Below are positions 7,193-18,353 of a stretch of DNA of 37,781 nucleotides, one piece after another (the stretch's first letter is position 1; every line of letters starts with the position of its first letter). This DNA is from Thermoleophilia bacterium (GTDB lineage: Bacteria; Actinomycetota; Thermoleophilia; Miltoncostaeales; Miltoncostaeaceae): contig JADHKZ010000004.1 in NCBI GenBank assembly GCA_016780995.1, positions 1 through 37,781 of the forward strand. The letters are read 5' to 3'. A model generated the notes under the pieces. That model made no database searches. It had not been told where the DNA came from and was given only the letters and a program-made list of their open reading frames with translations. Both the position numbers and the translations under genes were made by a program.

Positions 7193-8416
7193 TCAGGACG
7201 TTGTCGGCGGCACCAGGGCGTCGAGGGCGTCGCGCACCGCGGCCAGCGGCACGCGCACGGTGCCCGTGCCCACCCAGGCGCCGTCGGTACGACCTGCGAT
7301 GCCCGTGGCGATGGCCGGGCCCTCACCGGCGTCGAGGCACAGGCGCGCGTCGATGGCCACCTCGGCGCAGGAGATGAGCCCCTGGTCGCCCGTCCACGTG
7401 GCCGCGTCGGGGGCGGAGGTGCCGGGGTCGAGGCGGGGATCGTCGGCGATGGGGGCGGGGGCGGTGAACCACGCCCCGGGGAGGCCGGCCAGCATGATCC
7501 CCACGTCGGTGCCGTTCCCCGCCATCGCGGTGACCAGGCTGGACCGCCCCGAGCCGGCGGTGGCCTGCAGCATGGCCCGGGCGGCGGCGGCCATGAGGGG
7601 CATGGCCAGCCGCCCGGTGCCGACCATTGGCGCCAGCGCCGGCACGGCGTCGAGGGCACGCGACGCCAGTCCCGGCATAAGCGCGCTCATGAGCAGGAGC
7701 GACGCCGCGCGCGGCGTGGCCGCGGGCTCGTCGCCCATCGCGGAGGCCGTGCGGAGCATGTCCAGGAGGTCGATGGGGCCTGTGGCGCCCAGGGCCGCGG
7801 CCGCGCCGGGTGCCACGCGGTCGGCGAGCAGCCTCTGGCGCGTGAGCAGCTGCCGGCTGGGTGACCCCGGTGGCAGCCCGTCGCCGGCGCCGTCCGACAT
7901 GGGGGCCCAGGCATCGGCCCCCGTGGCGTCGTCATGCACCGCCCATGCGGCCATGGAGGGGGAGAGGACGCCGCACATGGTGGCGGCCACGCCGTGGCCG
8001 TCGCCGGGCTCCAGGGCGATGGCGCCCTGGGCGATGAGCGCGGCGGCGTCGCCCTGGTCGGGCGCCCAGCCCTCAAGCACCGCCGCGCGCGCCACCTGGG
8101 CACGCATGGCCGGGCCCATGGCGTCCCATTCGCAGGGAGGACCGGCGTGGAGGATGATGCGGCCGTTCATGCCGGGCACCAGGTCGGCGGCGATCCCCGC
8201 GCCCACCAGGTGCGGCCGGGCGGCGTCCAGCCGCTCCAGGGCCTCGCGGTTGCCCTGCTCCACGGCGTCGTCGGCGTATGCCCGGGTGAGCCGCGCCACG
8301 TCGGCGAGGTCGCCGCGTGCCGGGGGAGACCACTCCACCACCAGGGGCTCCACCCCCTGGTCGCGCAGCGACTGCTCCACGCGCGGGGCATCGATGGTGG
8401 CGATGGCCAGTGCCAT
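7193..8416 (-). CDS. DUF1116 family protein (AllG/YlbE-like)
   Basis: A 407-residue protein resembling the DUF1116 family, with the hallmark stretch 'GMNGRIILHAGPPCEWDAM' near residue 82, 'AAVLEGWA' near 111, 'GVLSPSMAAWAVHD' near 148 and 'LLLMSALMPGLASRAL' near 240. In E. coli the DUF1116 protein AllG works with FdrA and AllH in oxamate carbamoyltransferase. Here neither partner is adjacent; an FdrA-like gene lies about 9 kb away. No catalytic residue can be assigned. There is no ribosome site, but TAGCAT lies 6 nt before the ATG, suggesting a leaderless message. The upstream TauE/SafE gene ends 36 bp before it. Confidence 0.7.
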   Translation of the reverse strand: MALAIATIDAPRVEQSLRDQGVEPLVVEWSPPARGDLADVARLTRAYADDAVEQGNREALERLDAARPHLVGAGIAADLVPGMNGRIILHAGPPCEWDAMGPAMRAQVARAAVLEGWAPDQGDAAALIAQGAIALEPGDGHGVAATMCGVLSPSMAAWAVHDDATGADAWAPMSDGAGDGLPPGSPSRQLLTRQRLLADRVAPGAAAALGATGPIDLLDMLRTASAMGDEPAATPRAASLLLMSALMPGLASRALDAVPALAPMVGTGRLAMPLMAAAARAMLQATAGSGRSSLVTAMAGNGTDVGIMLAGLPGAWFTAPAPIADDPRLDPGTSAPDAATWTGDQGLISCAEVAIDARLCLDAGEGPAIATGIAGRTDGAWVGTGTVRVPLAAVRDALDALVPPTTS

Positions 8417-8452: not shown

Positions 8453-9229
8453 TCAGGTGACCAGGAAGGCCACGCCCACGGCGATGCCGAGCACGATGAC
8501 GCCCACGCGGAACACCGTCTCGTTCAGGTGCTGCACCGTCTTGCCGCCCATCCATCCGCCCGCGTAGGCACCCACGCCCATCAGCACCGCGGCCAGCCAG
8601 TACACCCGTCCGCTGAACGCGAAGAAGAGGGCCGCGGCCCCGTTGGCGCACAGCGACATCAGCAGCTTGAGGGCATTGAGGCGGTTGAGGGTGTCGGTGA
8701 GCATGAGACCGAGGATCGCGATGGTGATGATCCCCAGTCCCGCGCCGAAGTAACCGCCATAGACGGTTGCCACGAACACCGACGCGATGAGCACGGGTCG
8801 GGCCATCTCCCCGGTGTCGCCGCGCGCGCCGAGGGTGGCGCGCCGGAGTGGCCCCTGCACGGCCAGGAGGGCCGTGGCGCCGAAGATGAGCCAGGGCACC
8901 AACTGCTCGAACAACTCCTGGCCGGTGGCCAGCAACAGCGCGGCTCCCGTGACGCCCCCGACGATGGACGTGATGGCCAGCGCGCGCGCGAGGTCGCGGC
9001 GGCCGGCGAAGTCGCGGCGCTGCGCGTAGGCGCCGCCGGCGTAGCCCGGCGACAGTGCCACGGCATTGGTGATGTTGGCGTCGAGGGAGGGGATGCCCAC
9101 GGCGGTGAGCACCGGGAAGCTCACGAGGGTGCCGCCGCCCGCCACCGAGTTGACGAAGCCGCCCGCGACGCCGCCCAGCAGCACGGCGACGAGGGCCCAG
9201 GTTCCGAGGTCCACCACGCGTGCGAGCAT
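8453..9229 (-). CDS. TauE/SafE family sulfite/anion exporter
   Basis: A 258-residue protein with about eight hydrophobic helices and the family's signature 'GFVNSVAGGGTLVSFPVL' near residue 25 and its echo 'YGGYFGAGLGIITIAIL' near 157, one per half of the internal repeat. Members move sulfite, sulfoacetate or other small organic anions across the inner membrane; the substrate here is unknown. The ATG at 9229 is divergent from the MMPL-hydrolase gene, with only 42 bp between the starts. It lies upstream of the DUF1116 gene on the same strand. Confidence 0.88.
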   Translation of the reverse strand: MLARVVDLGTWALVAVLLGGVAGGFVNSVAGGGTLVSFPVLTAVGIPSLDANITNAVALSPGYAGGAYAQRRDFAGRRDLARALAITSIVGGVTGAALLLATGQELFEQLVPWLIFGATALLAVQGPLRRATLGARGDTGEMARPVLIASVFVATVYGGYFGAGLGIITIAILGLMLTDTLNRLNALKLLMSLCANGAAALFFAFSGRVYWLAAVLMGVGAYAGGWMGGKTVQHLNETVFRVGVIVLGIAVGVAFLVT

Positions 9230-9271: not shown

Positions 9272-12200
9272 ATGGGCGATCCCGCACCCCGCACCACGAT
9301 GCTCGGCGGTCTTGGCCGGTGGTGCGCCCGCCGCCGTTGGTGGGTGCTGGGCGCGTGGGTGGTGGCCCTGGTGGGCCTCACGGTGCTGGGCGGCGCACTG
9401 GGCGGCACGCCGTCGGACGACCTCACCGTGCCGGGTCTCTCCGCCGCCGAGGGCGAGCGGGTGCTGCAGCGGGACTTCCCCGGCCAGGGCCGCGCCGACG
9501 GGCAGGTGGTCATCCGCTCCGAGGGCGCTCCGCTGGCGGTGGCCCCCGCGCGGGCGGCCATCGCCGAGGCCGCCGCCGGCATGCGCCGCATCCCCGGCGT
9601 GGAGTCGGTGGCCGTGCCGGGCGCCCCGGGCACCGTGTCGGCCGATGGCCGTACCGCCCTCATGGGAGTGGAGTGGCGCACGGCCCCCCAGGACCTGGGC
9701 GCGGCCGACCTGGATCGCCTGCGCGATGCCGCCCGCCCCCTGCGTGACGCGGGCCTGGTCGTGGCCTTCGCGGGATCGCCCGCGGTCCAGGCCGAGTCAT
9801 CGGGCACCGACTGGTCGGCCGTCGTGGGCGTGGCGGCGGCAGTGGTGATCCTGCTGCTGGCGTTCGGATCGGTGATCACCATGGCCATCCCGGTGGTGGG
9901 TGCGCTGGTGTCGGTGGGCACCGCGCTGGCCATCCTCACCGTGCTGCAGTCGGTCACCGACGTGAGCGCCGTGGGTCGCACCCTGGCGGTGATGATCGGG
10001 CTCGGTGTGTCGGTGGACTACGCGCTGTTCGTGGTGAGCCGCCACGCGCAGCAGGTGGCCGGCGGCATGGAACTGCGCGAGTCCATCGCGCGGGCCACCG
10101 CCAGCGCCGGGCGCGCGGTGGTGATCGCCGGCACCACGGTGGCCATCGCGGTGCTGGGCCTGGCGGTGGCCGGCATCCCGTTCGTCACGCGCCTGGGCCA
10201 GGCCGCCGCCATCGCCGTGGTGGTGGCCGTGCTGGCCGCCATCACCCTCCTGCCCGCGGCGCTCGCGATCGTGGGCAACGGCCTGGGCCGGTGGCGCCTG
10301 CCGTTCGTGTCGGGTCCACGGCCCGTGGACCTGGATGCCCCGCGCGCTGAGATGCACGGCTTCGCCCGGTGGTCGCTCACGGTCACCCGTCGCCCCTGGC
10401 CCTGGTTGCTGGCGTCGCTCGCGGTGCTGGTGGCGCTGGCTATGCCGGTGTTCTTCATGGAGCTCGGCCAGGTGGATGCGGGTACCGATCCCGAGGGGTC
10501 CACCACGCGCGAGGCCTACCACCTGATCGCCACGGGATTCGGTCCCGGGTTCAATGGCCCCGTGGAGGTGGTCCTGGAGGGGCCGCAGGCCAAGGCGCGC
10601 GCGCAGGACGTGGCCCAGCGGGCACGCGACCTGGCCGGCGTGGTGTACGCGGCCCCGCCGGTGCCGGCCCCCCGCGCCGACGCCGCCCTGGTGACCGTGG
10701 TGACCGCCGCGGCGCCGTCCAGCCCGCGCACCACTGAGGTGGTGGAGAGGCTGGCGCAGCGCCTGCGCCCGGTGGCCGGCCCCGGCACGCGGGTGTACGC
10801 CACCGGCCCCACGGCCGTGGGGGTGGACCTGTCGCAGCGGGTGGCGTCGCGCCTGCCGTGGTTCATCGCAGCGGTCATCCTGATCTCGTTCGTGCTGCTG
10901 ATGATCGAGTTCCGGTCGCTGCTGGTGCCGCTGCAGGCGGCCCTGATGAACCTGCTGTCGGTGGGCGCGGCCTTCGGCGTGGTGGTGGGCATCTTCCAGT
11001 GGGGAATCCTGCGGGAGCAGATCGGCGTGCCGGAGGCCGTGGCCATCGAGGCCTGGGTGCCCATGATGATGTTCGCCATCCTGTTCGGGCTGTCGATGGA
11101 CTACGAGGTGTTCCTGTTGTCGCGCGTGCGGGAGGCATGGCGCGAGACCGGCGACCCGCACCGCTCCGTTGCGCTGGGCCTGGCCTCCACCGCGCGGGTC
11201 ATCACCGCGGCCGCGCTGATCATGGTGAGCGTGTTCCTGGCGTTCGTCATCACCGACGACGTGGTGGTGAAGATGCTGGGAATCGGGCTGGCCACGGCCG
11301 TGCTGGTGGATGCCACGATCATCCGCCTGGTGCTGGCGCCCGCGCTGCTGAGCCTGTTCGGGCGGTGGAACTGGTGGCTGCCGGGGGGGGACAATGCGGC
11401 CATGAGCCCCGCCGAAGAGCCCTCGGGCATCGCCCCCCGCCCCGACCGCGTGTCGGTGCGCACGGGCGCGCGGCCCCACACGGAGTTCGGTCATGACGAC
11501 GTGGACGCGGACGCCGAGCTCGTGGTCATCCGCACCGACGACCACAAGCACTGGGACGGGCTCCTCATGCGCCCGCGCGATGATCGGGGCGGCCGCGCGG
11601 GCACCCTGGTGATCATCGTGCACGGCTCGCTTGGCAACTACATGGGGGGCGTACCGCGCCGGATGGCGTTCGAGCTGGCCCACCACGGCTACGCAGCGCT
11701 GTCCATCAACACGCGCATGGCCAACTTCGGCGTGGTGTACGGCGGCGGGCTGTTCGACGAGACCCCCCGTGACCTCGCCGGCGCCATGGACCTGGCGCGC
11801 GAGCGCGGATTCGAGCGCGTGGTGCTGATGGGCTACAGCCTGGGCGCCAGCATCGTCACGCACTACCAGGCGCTGCGCCACCCGCCCGAGGTGGTGGGCT
11901 TGTGCACTCTGGCGCACCCGTGGAGCCTGCCCGAGTCGATGCGTGCGCGGTGGACCCGCCTGCGCGCGCGGCCCTCGTACACCGAGGTGGCGCGCATGGC
12001 GCTGCGGGCGGGCGTGGACCGCGACGGGTCGGATGACGTGGTGATCGTGCACCGCGGCGCCGGGCCCACCGACTCGCCGTACGACGCCGAGGCGTGGTCG
12101 CTTCGCTGCTGGTGGCAGTGCCGGGGCCCGGAATCGCGCAACCCGGTGTCGGTGGACCGCATCCGTGACGTGGGCGTGCCCGTGGCGCTGATTCAGGCGG

Positions 12201-13288
12201 GAGACGACCCCGTCTTGCCGGGGGACGATGGCGACAACCTGGCCGAGGCCGCGCGGGCAGCTGGCGTGCCCGTGCACCTGGAGCATGTCCCCGGGGCCGA
12301 CCACACGTTCTGGGGGATGGTGCCGCAGGTGGCCGAGCGAGCGGTGGCGTGGTTGGACGCCCTGCCGCAGCAGCGCCCGGCCCCGGTGCCGCCGCGCGGG
12401 GCGGGGTCGGGCACCGTGCGGCTGGTGACCATCCGGGGCGCGGATGGCAGCCTGCACGACGGCATCCTCGAGCGCCATGCCGACGCCACCGAGGCCCGCG
12501 CGGCGGAGACCGGCCGGCGCACGGCGATCGTGCACCTGCACGGCAACCAGGGCAACCTGAGCGTGGGGGCGCTGCGGTTCCTGCGCGCCCCCGTGGCCGG
12601 CTTGGGGCTGCCCATCCTCACCATCGACACGCGCATCGGCAACGTGTCGCAGTTGTTTGGCACGGCCGTGCTGGAGGACGTGCTGGACGACGTGCGCGCG
12701 GCCGCTGCGTGGCTGGCGGGGGAGGGATACGACCACCTGCTGGTGTCGGGCTACTCGCTCGGCGCCACCGCGGCGTTCTACTGCGCCGCCCACGACCTGG
12801 GCCTCCCCCTTGTGGGCGCCGCGGGCCTGGGCACCGCGTGGAGCCTTCCCGAGTCGAGCCGCGCGCGCATGGATCGCTGCGGCGCCGCGCCCTCATATGA
12901 GGAACTGGTGGAGCTGTGCCGTCCGTACGCCGACGTGGAACCCGAGGACGACATGAGCCTGGTGATCCATCGCATGTACCTGCCCGATGACGCCCCGCAC
13001 GCGGCGGGCGTGTACACGGCCCGCACGTGGTGGCACAGCCGGGGGCCCGACTCGGACGCGGCCAAGGCCTACCTGCACATCGGCCGCGTGCCCGCTCCCG
13101 TCCTGCTGGTGCAGGGGACGGACGACGTGATCGTGGCGCCGGACGACGCCGACCGCCTGGCCGACCGTGCCCGCGCCGATGGCCACGCGGACGTCACCCT
13201 GCAGGTGCTCCCCGGCGTGGGCCACGACTTCGGCGACCACGACGCCACCTTCGGCGCCCTTCGCGACTGGCTGCTGCGGGTGGGCTAG
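9272..13288 (+). CDS. MMPL transporter fused to two tandem alpha/beta hydrolases
   Basis: One open frame of 1338 codons. Residues 1 to about 705 are an MMPL/RND transporter with two halves, carrying GVSVDYALFVVSRHAQ and GLSMDYEVFLLSRVRE, and ending in the typical GRWNWWLP. From about 750 to 1035 is an alpha/beta hydrolase with GYSLG (nucleophile Ser856), DD at 978-979 and GADH (His1011). From about 1055 to 1338 is a second hydrolase with GYSLG (Ser1162), DD at 1284-1285 and GVGH (His1318). The two share WSLPESxRAR, PSY and RGP(E/D)S, so they arose by duplication. The fusion point is a G8 tract at 11383-11390. One G fewer would stop the transporter at a TGA overlapping the ATG at 11402, so this may be two genes. 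The transporter may export a lipid-like substrate that the hydrolases process. ATG 9299 is an alternative start. TACGGT lies 10 nt upstream. Confidence 0.8.
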   Translation: MGDPAPRTTMLGGLGRWCARRRWWVLGAWVVALVGLTVLGGALGGTPSDDLTVPGLSAAEGERVLQRDFPGQGRADGQVVIRSEGAPLAVAPARAAIAEAAAGMRRIPGVESVAVPGAPGTVSADGRTALMGVEWRTAPQDLGAADLDRLRDAARPLRDAGLVVAFAGSPAVQAESSGTDWSAVVGVAAAVVILLLAFGSVITMAIPVVGALVSVGTALAILTVLQSVTDVSAVGRTLAVMIGLGVSVDYALFVVSRHAQQVAGGMELRESIARATASAGRAVVIAGTTVAIAVLGLAVAGIPFVTRLGQAAAIAVVVAVLAAITLLPAALAIVGNGLGRWRLPFVSGPRPVDLDAPRAEMHGFARWSLTVTRRPWPWLLASLAVLVALAMPVFFMELGQVDAGTDPEGSTTREAYHLIATGFGPGFNGPVEVVLEGPQAKARAQDVAQRARDLAGVVYAAPPVPAPRADAALVTVVTAAAPSSPRTTEVVERLAQRLRPVAGPGTRVYATGPTAVGVDLSQRVASRLPWFIAAVILISFVLLMIEFRSLLVPLQAALMNLLSVGAAFGVVVGIFQWGILREQIGVPEAVAIEAWVPMMMFAILFGLSMDYEVFLLSRVREAWRETGDPHRSVALGLASTARVITAAALIMVSVFLAFVITDDVVVKMLGIGLATAVLVDATIIRLVLAPALLSLFGRWNWWLPGGDNAAMSPAEEPSGIAPRPDRVSVRTGARPHTEFGHDDVDADAELVVIRTDDHKHWDGLLMRPRDDRGGRAGTLVIIVHGSLGNYMGGVPRRMAFELAHHGYAALSINTRMANFGVVYGGGLFDETPRDLAGAMDLARERGFERVVLMGYSLGASIVTHYQALRHPPEVVGLCTLAHPWSLPESMRARWTRLRARPSYTEVARMALRAGVDRDGSDDVVIVHRGAGPTDSPYDAEAWSLRCWWQCRGPESRNPVSVDRIRDVGVPVALIQAGDDPVLPGDDGDNLAEAARAAGVPVHLEHVPGADHTFWGMVPQVAERAVAWLDALPQQRPAPVPPRGAGSGTVRLVTIRGADGSLHDGILERHADATEARAAETGRRTAIVHLHGNQGNLSVGALRFLRAPVAGLGLPILTIDTRIGNVSQLFGTAVLEDVLDDVRAAAAWLAGEGYDHLLVSGYSLGATAAFYCAAHDLGLPLVGAAGLGTAWSLPESSRARMDRCGAAPSYEELVELCRPYADVEPEDDMSLVIHRMYLPDDAPHAAGVYTARTWWHSRGPDSDAAKAYLHIGRVPAPVLLVQGTDDVIVAPDDADRLADRARADGHADVTLQVLPGVGHDFGDHDATFGALRDWLLRVG
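11383..11390 (+). other. G8 homopolymer at the MMPL-hydrolase junction
   Basis: Eight consecutive G in codons GGG-GGG-GAC follow the natural transporter C-terminus. Removing one G makes the frame end at TGA 11403-11405, overlapping ATG 11402-11404 of the hydrolase part. This is the same ATGA arrangement used between many genes in the window. It may be a sequencing error, a phase-variation tract or a slippage site. Confidence 0.7.
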
Positions 13289-13899
13289 GCGGCGGCGGGC
13301 CGCACGGCGCGCACCAGGGTGTCGATCGCCGTGCGCGGGCCGTCGGGGGTGTCCACCACCCGGTCGATGCGCTGGGCGGCCACCACCTCCAGGTCGTCCT
13401 CCAGGAAGCTCGTGACCTGGTCGGGTGACTGCAGGATGGCCGGGTCGGGCGGTCCGCCGTGCCCGCGCTCCAGGTTGTCCACGTCGTGGCCGATGAGCAG
13501 GAAGGTCCCCCCCGGGGTGAGCGCCCGTGAGGCCCCGGACACCGCGGCACCCAGCACCGGGTCCGGCACCTGCAGGTACAGCACGATGACCAGGTCGAAC
13601 TCCCCGGCCGGGGGCCGGTAGTCGCCCACGTCGGCCTGCACGGCCGTCAGCGCCACGCCCTGCTGCCGCGCCATCTCCTCGGCCCGGTCCAGGCCCGCCC
13701 GGGAGAAGTCGACGATGGTCACGTCCCAGCCGCGGGATGCCAGCCACACGGCGTTGCGCCCCTCCCCGCCACCGAGGTCGAGCGCGCGCCCCGGGGGGAG
13801 CGCCTCGACCTCGGCGACGAGGCGGCGGTTCGGCTCCGAACCCCATACGAGGTCCGGAGCCGAGTACCGCCGGTCCCACACGCCGGCGTCAGTGCCCAA
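13285..13899 (-). CDS. Class I SAM-dependent methyltransferase
   Basis: A 204-residue Rossmann methyltransferase. The N-terminal 'WDRRYSAPDLVWGSEPN' is typical of TehB/thiopurine-methyltransferase-like proteins. Motif I is ALDLGGGEGRNAVWLASRG near residue 39, the acidic ribose-binding residue follows in 'VTIVDFSRAGL', and motif III/IV is 'GEFDLVIVLYLQVP'. The substrate is unknown; related enzymes act on tellurite, thiols or small metabolites. The TTG start at 13899 overlaps the end of the MMPL gene by 11 nt, so it is the last gene of the ArsR operon; a GTG at 13881 is an alternative. Its 3' end shares CTAG with the convergent hydrolase gene. Confidence 0.88.
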   Translation of the reverse strand: MGTDAGVWDRRYSAPDLVWGSEPNRRLVAEVEALPPGRALDLGGGEGRNAVWLASRGWDVTIVDFSRAGLDRAEEMARQQGVALTAVQADVGDYRPPAGEFDLVIVLYLQVPDPVLGAAVSGASRALTPGGTFLLIGHDVDNLERGHGGPPDPAILQSPDQVTSFLEDDLEVVAAQRIDRVVDTPDGPRTAIDTLVRAVRPAAA

Positions 13900-16006
13900 A
13901 GCGCACGTCCGGGAGGATCCGGTCGAGCCACCGGGGCTGCCACCACGCCCACTTGCCCACCAGGCGCAGCGCCACCGGAACGATGAGCAGCCTCACCAGG
14001 AGGGCGTCCAGCAGGACGGCCACCCCGAGGATGATGCCCATCTCCTTGGGCGGCAGCGGCCCGGAGAGGGCGAACGTGAAGAACACGGCCACCATCACCG
14101 CCGCAGCGGCCAGGATGACCCGGCCCGAGTGCGCGAGGCCGCCGACCATGGCGTCCTTGGCATCGTGCGACCGGTCCCAGTGCTCGCGCGCCGAGGACAG
14201 CAGGAACACCGTGTAGTCCATCGAGATCGCGAAGATCATCGCGAAGAAGAAGACGGGTCCCCAGGCGTCGATGAAGCCCTGTGACTCGAAGCCCAGCAGC
14301 CCCGCCCCCCAGCCGTCCTGGAAGATGAGGCGGGCCACGCCGAACGCGGCGCCCACGGCCAGGAGGTTGGTGATCACGCCGATGGCGGCCACCACCGGGG
14401 CCTGGAAGGCCACCAGCAGCAGCAGGAAGCCCAGCACCAGCACGATGCCGATGACGATTGGCGTGTAGGTGCTGAGCGCCGAGGACAGGTCGGCCTGCTC
14501 GGCAGCCGCGCCGCCGATGAGCACACCGGCAGGCAGAGTGGTGCGCAGCCTGTCGATGGTCTCCGCGGTGGCCGTGGTGGACGGTCCCGTGGTGGGCACC
14601 GCCTGCACCATCGCCAGCCCGCCCCCGCCCGGCATGGGCGGCATGGCCGCGGCCACGCCGGCGTCGGAGGCGACCGACTTCTGCACCGCCGCCATCTCGC
14701 CGGCCGGGCCGACGATCTGCAGGGTGCCCGGCGCGCCCTCGCCGAACGCCTCGCTCACCAGTGCGTAGCCCTGTCGCGAGCCGTCGTCCTCGGGCACCAC
14801 CGTGATGGACGGCATGCCCGTCTTCAGGCCGAGGACCGGAATGGCCAGGATGATCAGGGCGATCACGGCGGGCGCCCCGAACAGCAGGGGCTTGCTCCAC
14901 AGCCTCTGGCCCCAGCGCTCGAACCTGGCAGAGCGGTGCTCGCCGGTGTGCGCCCACTTGAGAGCCCCCTTGTCCACCCGCGAGCCCAGCTTCGCCAGCA
15001 CCGCCGGCAGCAGGGTGAGGGTGGCCAGCAGGATGAAGACCACCGAGATCATGATGCCGAGCGCCATCGAGCGGAACGCGGGGCTGGGCACGATGAGCAC
15101 CGCGGACAGCGAGATGAGCACGGTCAGGCCCGAGAACATCACCGCCTTGCCCGCGGTATCCATCGTCTCGGTCGTCGCGTCGAGCGGGCTCCGGCCGGAT
15201 CCGAACAGCGCTCCGCGGAAGCGGTGCACGATGAACAGCGCGTAGTCGATGCCCAGCGCGAGCGCGAACATGAGGGCGAAGTTCATCGCCCAGATCGACA
15301 CGTCGAACGCCAGGGTGGTGAGGTACAGCGCGCCGGCGGTGGCCACCAGGCCCAGGATGGTGAGCAGCAGGGGGAGCCCCGCGGCCACCAGGGCACCGAA
15401 TGCGAGCAGCAGGATGACCATGGTGACCGGCCATGAGAGGAGCTCGCTCTTGACCATGGCCGAGCGATTGGCCTCGTTGAAGTCGGACCACATGCCTGAC
15501 GCGCCGGTGAGGTACACCGACACGCCGTCCGCCCCGTCCTCCGCGAGCGGGGCCTTCAGGCGGTCGGCCGCGCGCACCATCTCGGTGGCGTTCTCGGCGG
15601 CTCCCGCCATCACGATGGCCGTGCGGCCATCCTGCGAGATGGTCTGCCCCGGCATGGGCGGCACCACCTGAGACACGGCGCCGTCGGCCTCGAGCGTCGT
15701 CGTGGCCTTGGTCACCGCCGCCTGGAACGCCGGCGACGACACGGTCTTGTCGTCGGAGTGCACCACCACCATCAGTGCGTTGGAGGAGTTGCCCCCGAAG
15801 TTGTCCTGGATCAGTTGGCGTGCCTGCACCGACTGCGATCCGGTGTCCTCCCAGCCCGCGCCCGACAGCGACGTCTCCACGCGCGGGGCCAGGAAGCCCA
15901 GCCCCAGTGCGATGACCACCCAGGCGGCCACCACCCACCTGAAGTGCGTGGCCGACCAGCGGCCCAGGCGCCCGATGGGCCCCACGCTCGGCATGGGATC
16001 GGTCAT
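13889..16006 (-). CDS. MMPL (RND) family transporter
   Basis: A 705-residue membrane protein with the MMPL layout: one helix near residue 23, an extracytoplasmic loop, a helical block with FALALGIDYALFIVHRFRG, a second loop, and a second block with FAISMDYTVFLLSSARE. It ends with GKWAWWQPRWLDRILP. MMPL proteins export lipids or hydrophobic compounds using the proton gradient. The ATG at 16006 is preferred because AGGGGTG precedes it and it forms an ATGA overlap with the end of the DUF2892 frame. An upstream extension to 16084 would run through that frame. It belongs to the ArsR-controlled operon and is a distinct paralogue of the MMPL module at 9.3-11.4 kb. Confidence 0.92.
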   Translation of the reverse strand: MTDPMPSVGPIGRLGRWSATHFRWVVAAWVVIALGLGFLAPRVETSLSGAGWEDTGSQSVQARQLIQDNFGGNSSNALMVVVHSDDKTVSSPAFQAAVTKATTTLEADGAVSQVVPPMPGQTISQDGRTAIVMAGAAENATEMVRAADRLKAPLAEDGADGVSVYLTGASGMWSDFNEANRSAMVKSELLSWPVTMVILLLAFGALVAAGLPLLLTILGLVATAGALYLTTLAFDVSIWAMNFALMFALALGIDYALFIVHRFRGALFGSGRSPLDATTETMDTAGKAVMFSGLTVLISLSAVLIVPSPAFRSMALGIMISVVFILLATLTLLPAVLAKLGSRVDKGALKWAHTGEHRSARFERWGQRLWSKPLLFGAPAVIALIILAIPVLGLKTGMPSITVVPEDDGSRQGYALVSEAFGEGAPGTLQIVGPAGEMAAVQKSVASDAGVAAAMPPMPGGGGLAMVQAVPTTGPSTTATAETIDRLRTTLPAGVLIGGAAAEQADLSSALSTYTPIVIGIVLVLGFLLLLVAFQAPVVAAIGVITNLLAVGAAFGVARLIFQDGWGAGLLGFESQGFIDAWGPVFFFAMIFAISMDYTVFLLSSAREHWDRSHDAKDAMVGGLAHSGRVILAAAAVMVAVFFTFALSGPLPPKEMGIILGVAVLLDALLVRLLIVPVALRLVGKWAWWQPRWLDRILPDVRFGH

Positions 16007-16221
16007 CGCGCGCACCCCTGGAGGCCGAAGAGCTTCCTCATCACCAGCGACGACGGGCAGTCGCCGAATGCGACGTACATCCACTGGGATGCCCCCACGA
16101 ACAGCGTGAGGATGAGGAACTACGGACTCACGAACGCGGCCAGCAGTGCGCTCGCGATGGTGACGGTGCCCGCCATGAGGAACAGGACCCGCTCAAGCGG
16201 CCAGCGACCTGTGGTGCTCAA
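16003..16221 (-). pseudogene. DUF2892-family small membrane protein interrupted by an amber codon
   Basis: The frame reads TTG, then STTGRWPLERVLFLMAGTVTI, continues to FVSP, and hits TAG at 16120-16122 (codon 34). It then continues as FLILTLFVGASQWMYVAFGDCPSSLVMRKLFGLQGCAR to TGA at 16003. The pattern is that of DUF2892 proteins (rhodanese YgaP membrane domain), where a Trp usually sits in 'SPWFLxLT'; TGG to TAG is one change. Both ends are perfectly coupled: the TTG overlaps the ArsR stop (TTGA) with AGGGGAGG upstream, and the TGA overlaps the MMPL ATG. The rest is intact, so it is a fresh mutation, an error, or a read-through codon. Confidence 0.8.
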
Positions 16222-17108: not shown

Positions 17109-18353
17109 GTGGACGAGCTCCCGCGGGACGACGACGTGGTGGTGGAGCTGCACCCGGGCGCGGGCGCGGACCCCGGTGCGGGGCACGCGCCGGGGGTGGA
17201 AGGGCTCACGGTCATCGGGGTGCCCGGGCCGTTCGCCGCGCTGGAGGCCCACCGCGCCATCTCCGCGGGCTCGGACGTCATGTTGCTCACGGGCGATGTT
17301 CCCCTGGCCGACGAGGTGGACCTGAAGGCCCGCGGGGCGTCGGCCGGCCGCCTGGTGCTGGGACCCGGAAGCACCAGCGCCATCATCGACGGCATCGGCA
17401 TCGGCGTGTCGAATGCGGTGGCCCCCGGGCGCGTGGCGGTGGTGGCCACCTCGGGGTCGGGCGCGCAGGAAGCCACCGTGCTGCTGGACCGCTTCGGCGT
17501 GGGCGTGAGCCGCTGCCTGGTCACCGGCCCGCGCGACCTCACCGACGAGGTGCGGGCCATGTCCACGGCCGCCGTGCTGGCGCGCCTGGCGGACGACCCC
17601 GCCACGGATGGCGTGGTGCTGGTGGCCGAGGGATTCTCGGGCCGCGGGGCCGAGGCGGCGCTGGCCGCCCTGGCCGCGTGCGACCTCGCCGGGTCGGCAT
17701 GCCTCATCGGGGCCGATGGCATTCCCGCGCCCGACGGCGTGGAGGTGCACGGGGTCATCGACCAGGCCGTTGCGGCCGCGGCCCGCCGGGCCGGCGCGCG
17801 CCCGGTCATCCCGGCCGCGGAGCCCACCGGATGGGTGAGCGCCGGTCACGTGCGGGGCATCTTCTCGGGGTCGGCCCTGTGCGCCGAGGCCGCGGCCCTG
17901 CTGGCCGCCCGCCTTGGCCGGGTGGTGTCCAACACGCCGGCGGGTGCGGCTGAGCACCTGGATCCGCAGGACGTCGTGCGCGGGCACGCGTGCCTCGACC
18001 TGCACGCCGAGTCCACGTGGCACGGCACCCCCGATCCCGTGGAGCACCCCGAGCGCCGGGCTGAGCTCATCGCAGAGACCGTGGGCGACCAGACCGTGGC
18101 CGTGCTCCTGCTGGACGTCATCCTGGGGCGCGGCGCGCATCCCGACCCGGCGGGGGTGCTGGCGCCGGCGCTGGCGTCCGCGCTCCAGGCCCGGCCGTCG
18201 CTGCAGGTGGTGACGCACGTGTGCGGCACCGAGGCCGACCCGCAGGTGCTGTCGCGCCAGGAAGAGCAGCTCACGCGCGCAGGCGCACGCGTGGCCCCCA
18301 CCAGCGCGCAGGCCGCGCGGCTGGCGGCATCGCTCGTGCGCCCCGGTCGCTGA
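17109..18353 (+). CDS. FdrA-like protein (acyl-CoA synthetase / SucD-like fold)
   Basis: A 414-residue protein resembling FdrA, a homologue of succinyl-CoA synthetase alpha that acts in oxamate carbamoyltransferase in E. coli. Visible features are 'VATSGSGAQEATVLLDRFGVGVSRCLVTGPRDLTDEV' near residue 113, where the CoA ligase fold has its nucleotide-binding turn, then 'DDPATDGVVLVAEGFSGRGAEAALAAL', and C-terminal 'DQTVAVLLLDVILGRGAHPDPAG'. An N-terminal region of about 60 residues has a Rossmann-like alternation. The companion DUF1116 protein lies 9 kb away. No ribosome site is seen; TAGCGT lies 7 nt before the GTG, which argues for a leaderless message. A GTG at 17100 is possible. The next gene starts 10 bp after its stop. 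Confidence 0.75.
   Translation: MDELPRDDDVVVELHPGAGADPGAGHAPGVEGLTVIGVPGPFAALEAHRAISAGSDVMLLTGDVPLADEVDLKARGASAGRLVLGPGSTSAIIDGIGIGVSNAVAPGRVAVVATSGSGAQEATVLLDRFGVGVSRCLVTGPRDLTDEVRAMSTAAVLARLADDPATDGVVLVAEGFSGRGAEAALAALAACDLAGSACLIGADGIPAPDGVEVHGVIDQAVAAAARRAGARPVIPAAEPTGWVSAGHVRGIFSGSALCAEAAALLAARLGRVVSNTPAGAAEHLDPQDVVRGHACLDLHAESTWHGTPDPVEHPERRAELIAETVGDQTVAVLLLDVILGRGAHPDPAGVLAPALASALQARPSLQVVTHVCGTEADPQVLSRQEEQLTRAGARVAPTSAQAARLAASLVRPGR

Follow-up and report, generated by a model that had tools for sequence, protein, structure and literature searches.

The open reading frame at positions 9272–13288 (+) of the window, the whole 37,781-nucleotide stretch of DNA analyzed here, encodes an MMPL exporter followed by two alpha/beta hydrolases, and very probably represents two genes fused through a 26-base deletion that is either private to the strain or an assembly error. 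Judged against the related genomes, the exporter-enzyme fusion is private to the window's assembly and not a new protein design. The sequence-only reading had presented the locus as an export pump covalently joined to two hydrolases; its domain content and the gene pair, which is conserved, hold up, but the covalent exporter-hydrolase fusion does not.

Gene structure at the exporter-hydrolase junction

The frame runs without interruption for 1338 codons, as had been read from the letters. Since long open frames are common at the 73.5% GC content of the window, and the same frame is already open for about 470 codons before the MMPL gene begins, the open frame constitutes weak evidence for a single protein. 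We compared the locus across 20 genomes of the genus, in which ten relatives carry an orthologous MMPL gene just upstream of an orthologous hydrolase gene. The two genes lie in different frames in all ten, invariably with a four-base stop-start overlap (ATGA or GTGA), and none of these relatives has them fused in one frame. The sequence-only reading had suggested looking for the fused order in related genomes, with two separate genes there counting against it; two separate genes are what was found in 10/10, and the window is short by exactly 26 bases.

In the window, the corresponding overlap is the ATGA at 11402–11405 (+), in which the hydrolase start overlaps the ancestral MMPL stop (TGA, 11403–11405), now out of the MMPL frame. 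The distance from codon 705, the last conserved MMPL codon, to the MMPL stop is 45 bases in the relatives (48 as counted in L046, whose alignment stops one codon sooner) and 19 in the window. The junction consists of a run of eight G (11383–11390, +), followed by ACAATGCGGCC and then ATGAGC, and the gap relative to all relatives falls after position 11386. In a multiple DNA alignment it is one clean gap of 26 columns that the window alone shows, and blastn against two relatives returned the same 26-base loss at 11386. The loss lies in a G-rich stretch; with it the exporter is deprived of its basic tail (RRGRDGG...), and the MMPL and hydrolase frames become one. Because overlapping genes lack an intervening stop in the downstream frame, a deletion whose length has the right remainder modulo three fuses them.

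A one-base error within the eight-G run was ruled out as the cause because the relatives show a 26-base gap. A recurrent fusion was also suspected from long hydrolase frames in G007 and G011 (1347 and 1577 codons), but the MMPL gene is in another frame there (L048 and L047). We found no precedent for an MMPL-hydrolase fusion among the open papers searched.

The exporter and the twin hydrolase

The upstream gene (9272–11386, +; codons 1–705) encodes an MmpL3-like MMPL/RND exporter with two MMPL domain repeats (PF03176, two stretches, E 4e-83) and the normal C-terminus noted earlier, WNWWLPG at codon ~705. Its best sequence match among solved structures is MmpL3 (E 3.5e-50), the trehalose monomycolate exporter, with which it shares the Asp-Tyr dyads that are required for proton relay (PMC7458404). 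These are Asp249-Tyr250 and Asp610-Tyr611 (TM4 and TM10), invariant in eight orthologues. Unlike MmpL3, however, the window exporter has no MmpL3 C-terminal domain, and it scores 193 bits, far under the NCBIfam MmpL3 equivalog cut-off of 1400 bits.

Pfam searches with the 1338-codon frame also returned alpha/beta-hydrolase matches in each half of the sequence beyond the exporter, in line with the domain assignment of the sequence-only reading. Hydrolase domain 1 (11402–12391, +; Pfam Hydrolase_4/DLH) and hydrolase domain 2 (12392–13285, +; Pfam) are each further delimited by alignment and by an AlphaFold (AF2) model, which predicts two complete hydrolase folds (pLDDT 83, pTM 0.85). Both contain a GYSLG nucleophile motif together with candidate Asp and His residues, placing the putative triads, by alignment and coordinates, at codon starts 11837 (Ser), 12206 (Asp) and 12302 (His) in domain 1 and 12755 (Ser), 13124 (Asp) and 13223 (His) in domain 2 (all +). 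The proposal that each hydrolase has its own Ser-Asp-His set is thus borne out, and the sets are nearly invariant, being kept in 12–13 of 13 aligned homologues. The degenerate case is domain 1 of L051:4010-5836, which lacks the Ser and His while domain 2 retains its triad; this protein may resemble an enzyme-pseudoenzyme pair, with domain 1 as the pseudoenzyme.

On alignment and model, both domains are members of the alpha/beta hydrolase superfamily with putative Ser-Asp-His triads. By Foldseek, one hydrolase domain has feruloyl/cinnamoyl-type esterases among its nearest structural neighbors (Est1E, LJ0536 and PET46; TM-score by target ~0.7), but these are single-domain enzymes with 14–18% identity, and the likeness is one of fold. 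In residues 711–1338, hydropathy analysis found no hydrophobic segment of the length that a signal peptide or membrane helix requires, suggesting that the twin hydrolase should act in the cytosol.

The two hydrolases form one open frame in 13/13 aligned homologues, down to 44% identity. Recurrence, which had been put forward as the mark of a real system, is therefore found for the two hydrolases fused together, and the alignments identify the hydrolase-hydrolase fusion as real and conserved at 44–89% identity. A profile search (E up to 1e-20) located the twin-hydrolase family in 37 of 399 Thermoleophilia genomes, all within the window's own bacterial family, a restriction that applies among the sampled genomes of this class.

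The locus is flanked by a divergent TauE/SafE-family permease gene (8453–9229, −), kept in relatives, and by a convergent SAM-dependent methyltransferase gene (13285–13899, −), kept in L039. A second MMPL exporter gene follows (13889–16084, −), also kept in relatives (87% in L039). An AllG-like gene (oxamate carbamoyltransferase subunit; 7193–8416, −) lies near the permease, and a CoA-ligase-domain frame is present at about 17859–18329 (+).

Deletion or assembly error

We consider a true deletion somewhat better than even against a local assembly error. A 93-kb contig of G001 aligns collinearly with the window, and the other lasting frame changes in the aligned window are all intergenic, with none inside a gene (gene map read by eye), indicating an otherwise sound assembly. 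G-rich direct repeats, a common setting for a slippage deletion, flank the missing stretch, which is itself very GC-rich. If the deletion is real, the fused exporter-esterase could be made and functional, its enzyme part anchored at the exporter's cytoplasmic end, although we regard this as unlikely. The contig reads cleanly through the junction and both halves are intact, and because the MmpL3 C-terminus is located on the cytoplasmic side (PMC7458404), the fused enzyme would keep its compartment. On the other hand, of the 11 genomes that carry the gene pair, one has the fusion, in a single MAG-like assembly of 106 contigs, and the hydrolase's own start and the G-rich stretch upstream of it are still present, so that free enzyme may still be made.

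Alternatively, an assembly or amplification error at the GC-rich stretch would leave the organism with two genes, as in its relatives, a reading that we hold possible but well short of even. The presence of two genes in all relatives agrees with it, as does the extreme GC content, and the bases that are missing here can form a hairpin in the closest relative. Yet a 26-base loss is atypical of short-read errors, most relatives do not have this hairpin, and the remainder of the window is clean. A hairpin excision model was accordingly set aside, as it fits the closest relative but is not general among the others.

Conservation and possible coupling of the two genes

Exporter and twin hydrolase are adjacent in 11/20 genomes of the genus, a count that includes the window genome and G018, in which the hydrolases are broken by frameshifts. 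Each gene is also found without the other: the twin hydrolase has no exporter nearby in G003, G004 and G017, the exporter occurs without either hydrolase pair in G008 and G014, and in G005 there is no twin gene beside it. Outside the genus, the stretches examined around the twin gene contained no MMPL gene. Together, these distributions indicate that functional coupling is not obligatory, and they define the exporter-twin hydrolase operon as a genus-level arrangement that is likewise not obligatory. A gene pair conserved in about half of the genus nevertheless makes a functional link plausible.

Beyond the observed gene structure, 26-base deletion, domain content, putative catalytic residues and conserved adjacency, we tentatively propose functional coupling of exporter and twin hydrolase, at slightly under an even chance. 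The ancestral locus is very probably a two-gene operon of an MmpL3-like, proton-driven RND exporter and a soluble, cytosolic twin alpha/beta hydrolase overlapping its stop by four bases. The exporter would draw on the proton gradient, and what it carries out is most likely an amphiphilic ester or lipid, a substrate class that we infer, and the twin hydrolase would be co-produced with it through translational coupling at the stop-start overlap. At the inner membrane face, the twin hydrolase may then cleave or transfer an acyl group on the exported substrate, with the direction of the reaction likewise presumed.

It is almost as probable as its opposite that the two genes are neighbors by chance or for reasons of expression level, and that the twin hydrolase has a separate intracellular role, like the paralogous hydrolase pair that adjoins a murI-like gene. 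This pair consists of two adjacent separate genes in the order opposite to the twin, is widespread in the bacterial family, and sits among other housekeeping genes (murI assigned by eye from a sequence motif), and outside the genus no MMPL gene adjoins it; the twin gene itself occurs without MMPL in seven genomes (G003, G004, G017, G023, G024, G072 and G165). What speaks against separate roles is the four-base overlap, kept in 10/10 relatives despite divergence to about 77–89% identity from the window's proteins.

A catabolic operon (flavin reductase, Asp/Glu racemase) had been considered for the paralogous pair and was rejected, the racemase motif being MurI-like and the surroundings housekeeping. 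Both the twin hydrolase and the paralogous split pair are missing in G008 and G014 and broken in G018 (L087, L088, L094, L095), a joint loss that hints at dependence of the two enzyme pairs on each other. Just past the paralogous pair, L083:11767-12480 encodes a bacteriorhodopsin-like protein, and at L083:1228-6229 there is a further MMPL-hydrolase neighborhood, formed by a second MMPL gene of larger size (~1025 aa) and a nearby divergent gene of the secretory-lipase family.

By arrangement, the best analogue of the proposed operon is MmpL8-Chp1 of Mycobacterium tuberculosis. Chp1 is an alpha/beta-hydrolase-fold acyltransferase with a cytosolic catalytic domain that is potentiated by MmpL8, and MmpL10 is needed for Chp2 activity (PMC4183827, PMC6463170). 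Both systems pair an MmpL exporter with an alpha/beta-hydrolase-fold enzyme, a pairing that is functional in M. tuberculosis and whose function is conjectural here. The structural features of Chp1 are absent from the window enzyme: Chp1 and Chp2 each combine a single hydrolase domain with a membrane helix at the N-terminus, in contrast to a soluble twin hydrolase without such a helix, and the window hydrolase has no cutinase-like or PE-PPE Pfam match and so falls outside the Chp1/Chp2 acyltransferases. We think it quite improbable that the deletion is real and yields a functional single-chain exporter-esterase-esterase in which an enzyme that processes acyl groups is tethered to an MmpL pump, and that the ancestral operon is an acyl-modification system coupled to export, Chp-like but outside mycobacteria.

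The locus illustrates that what looks like a new domain architecture can result from a single short deletion where two genes overlap by four bases in a GC-rich assembly. The conserved operon of an exporter and a twin esterase would offer a modest lead toward acyl modification coupled to export in bacteria other than mycobacteria.
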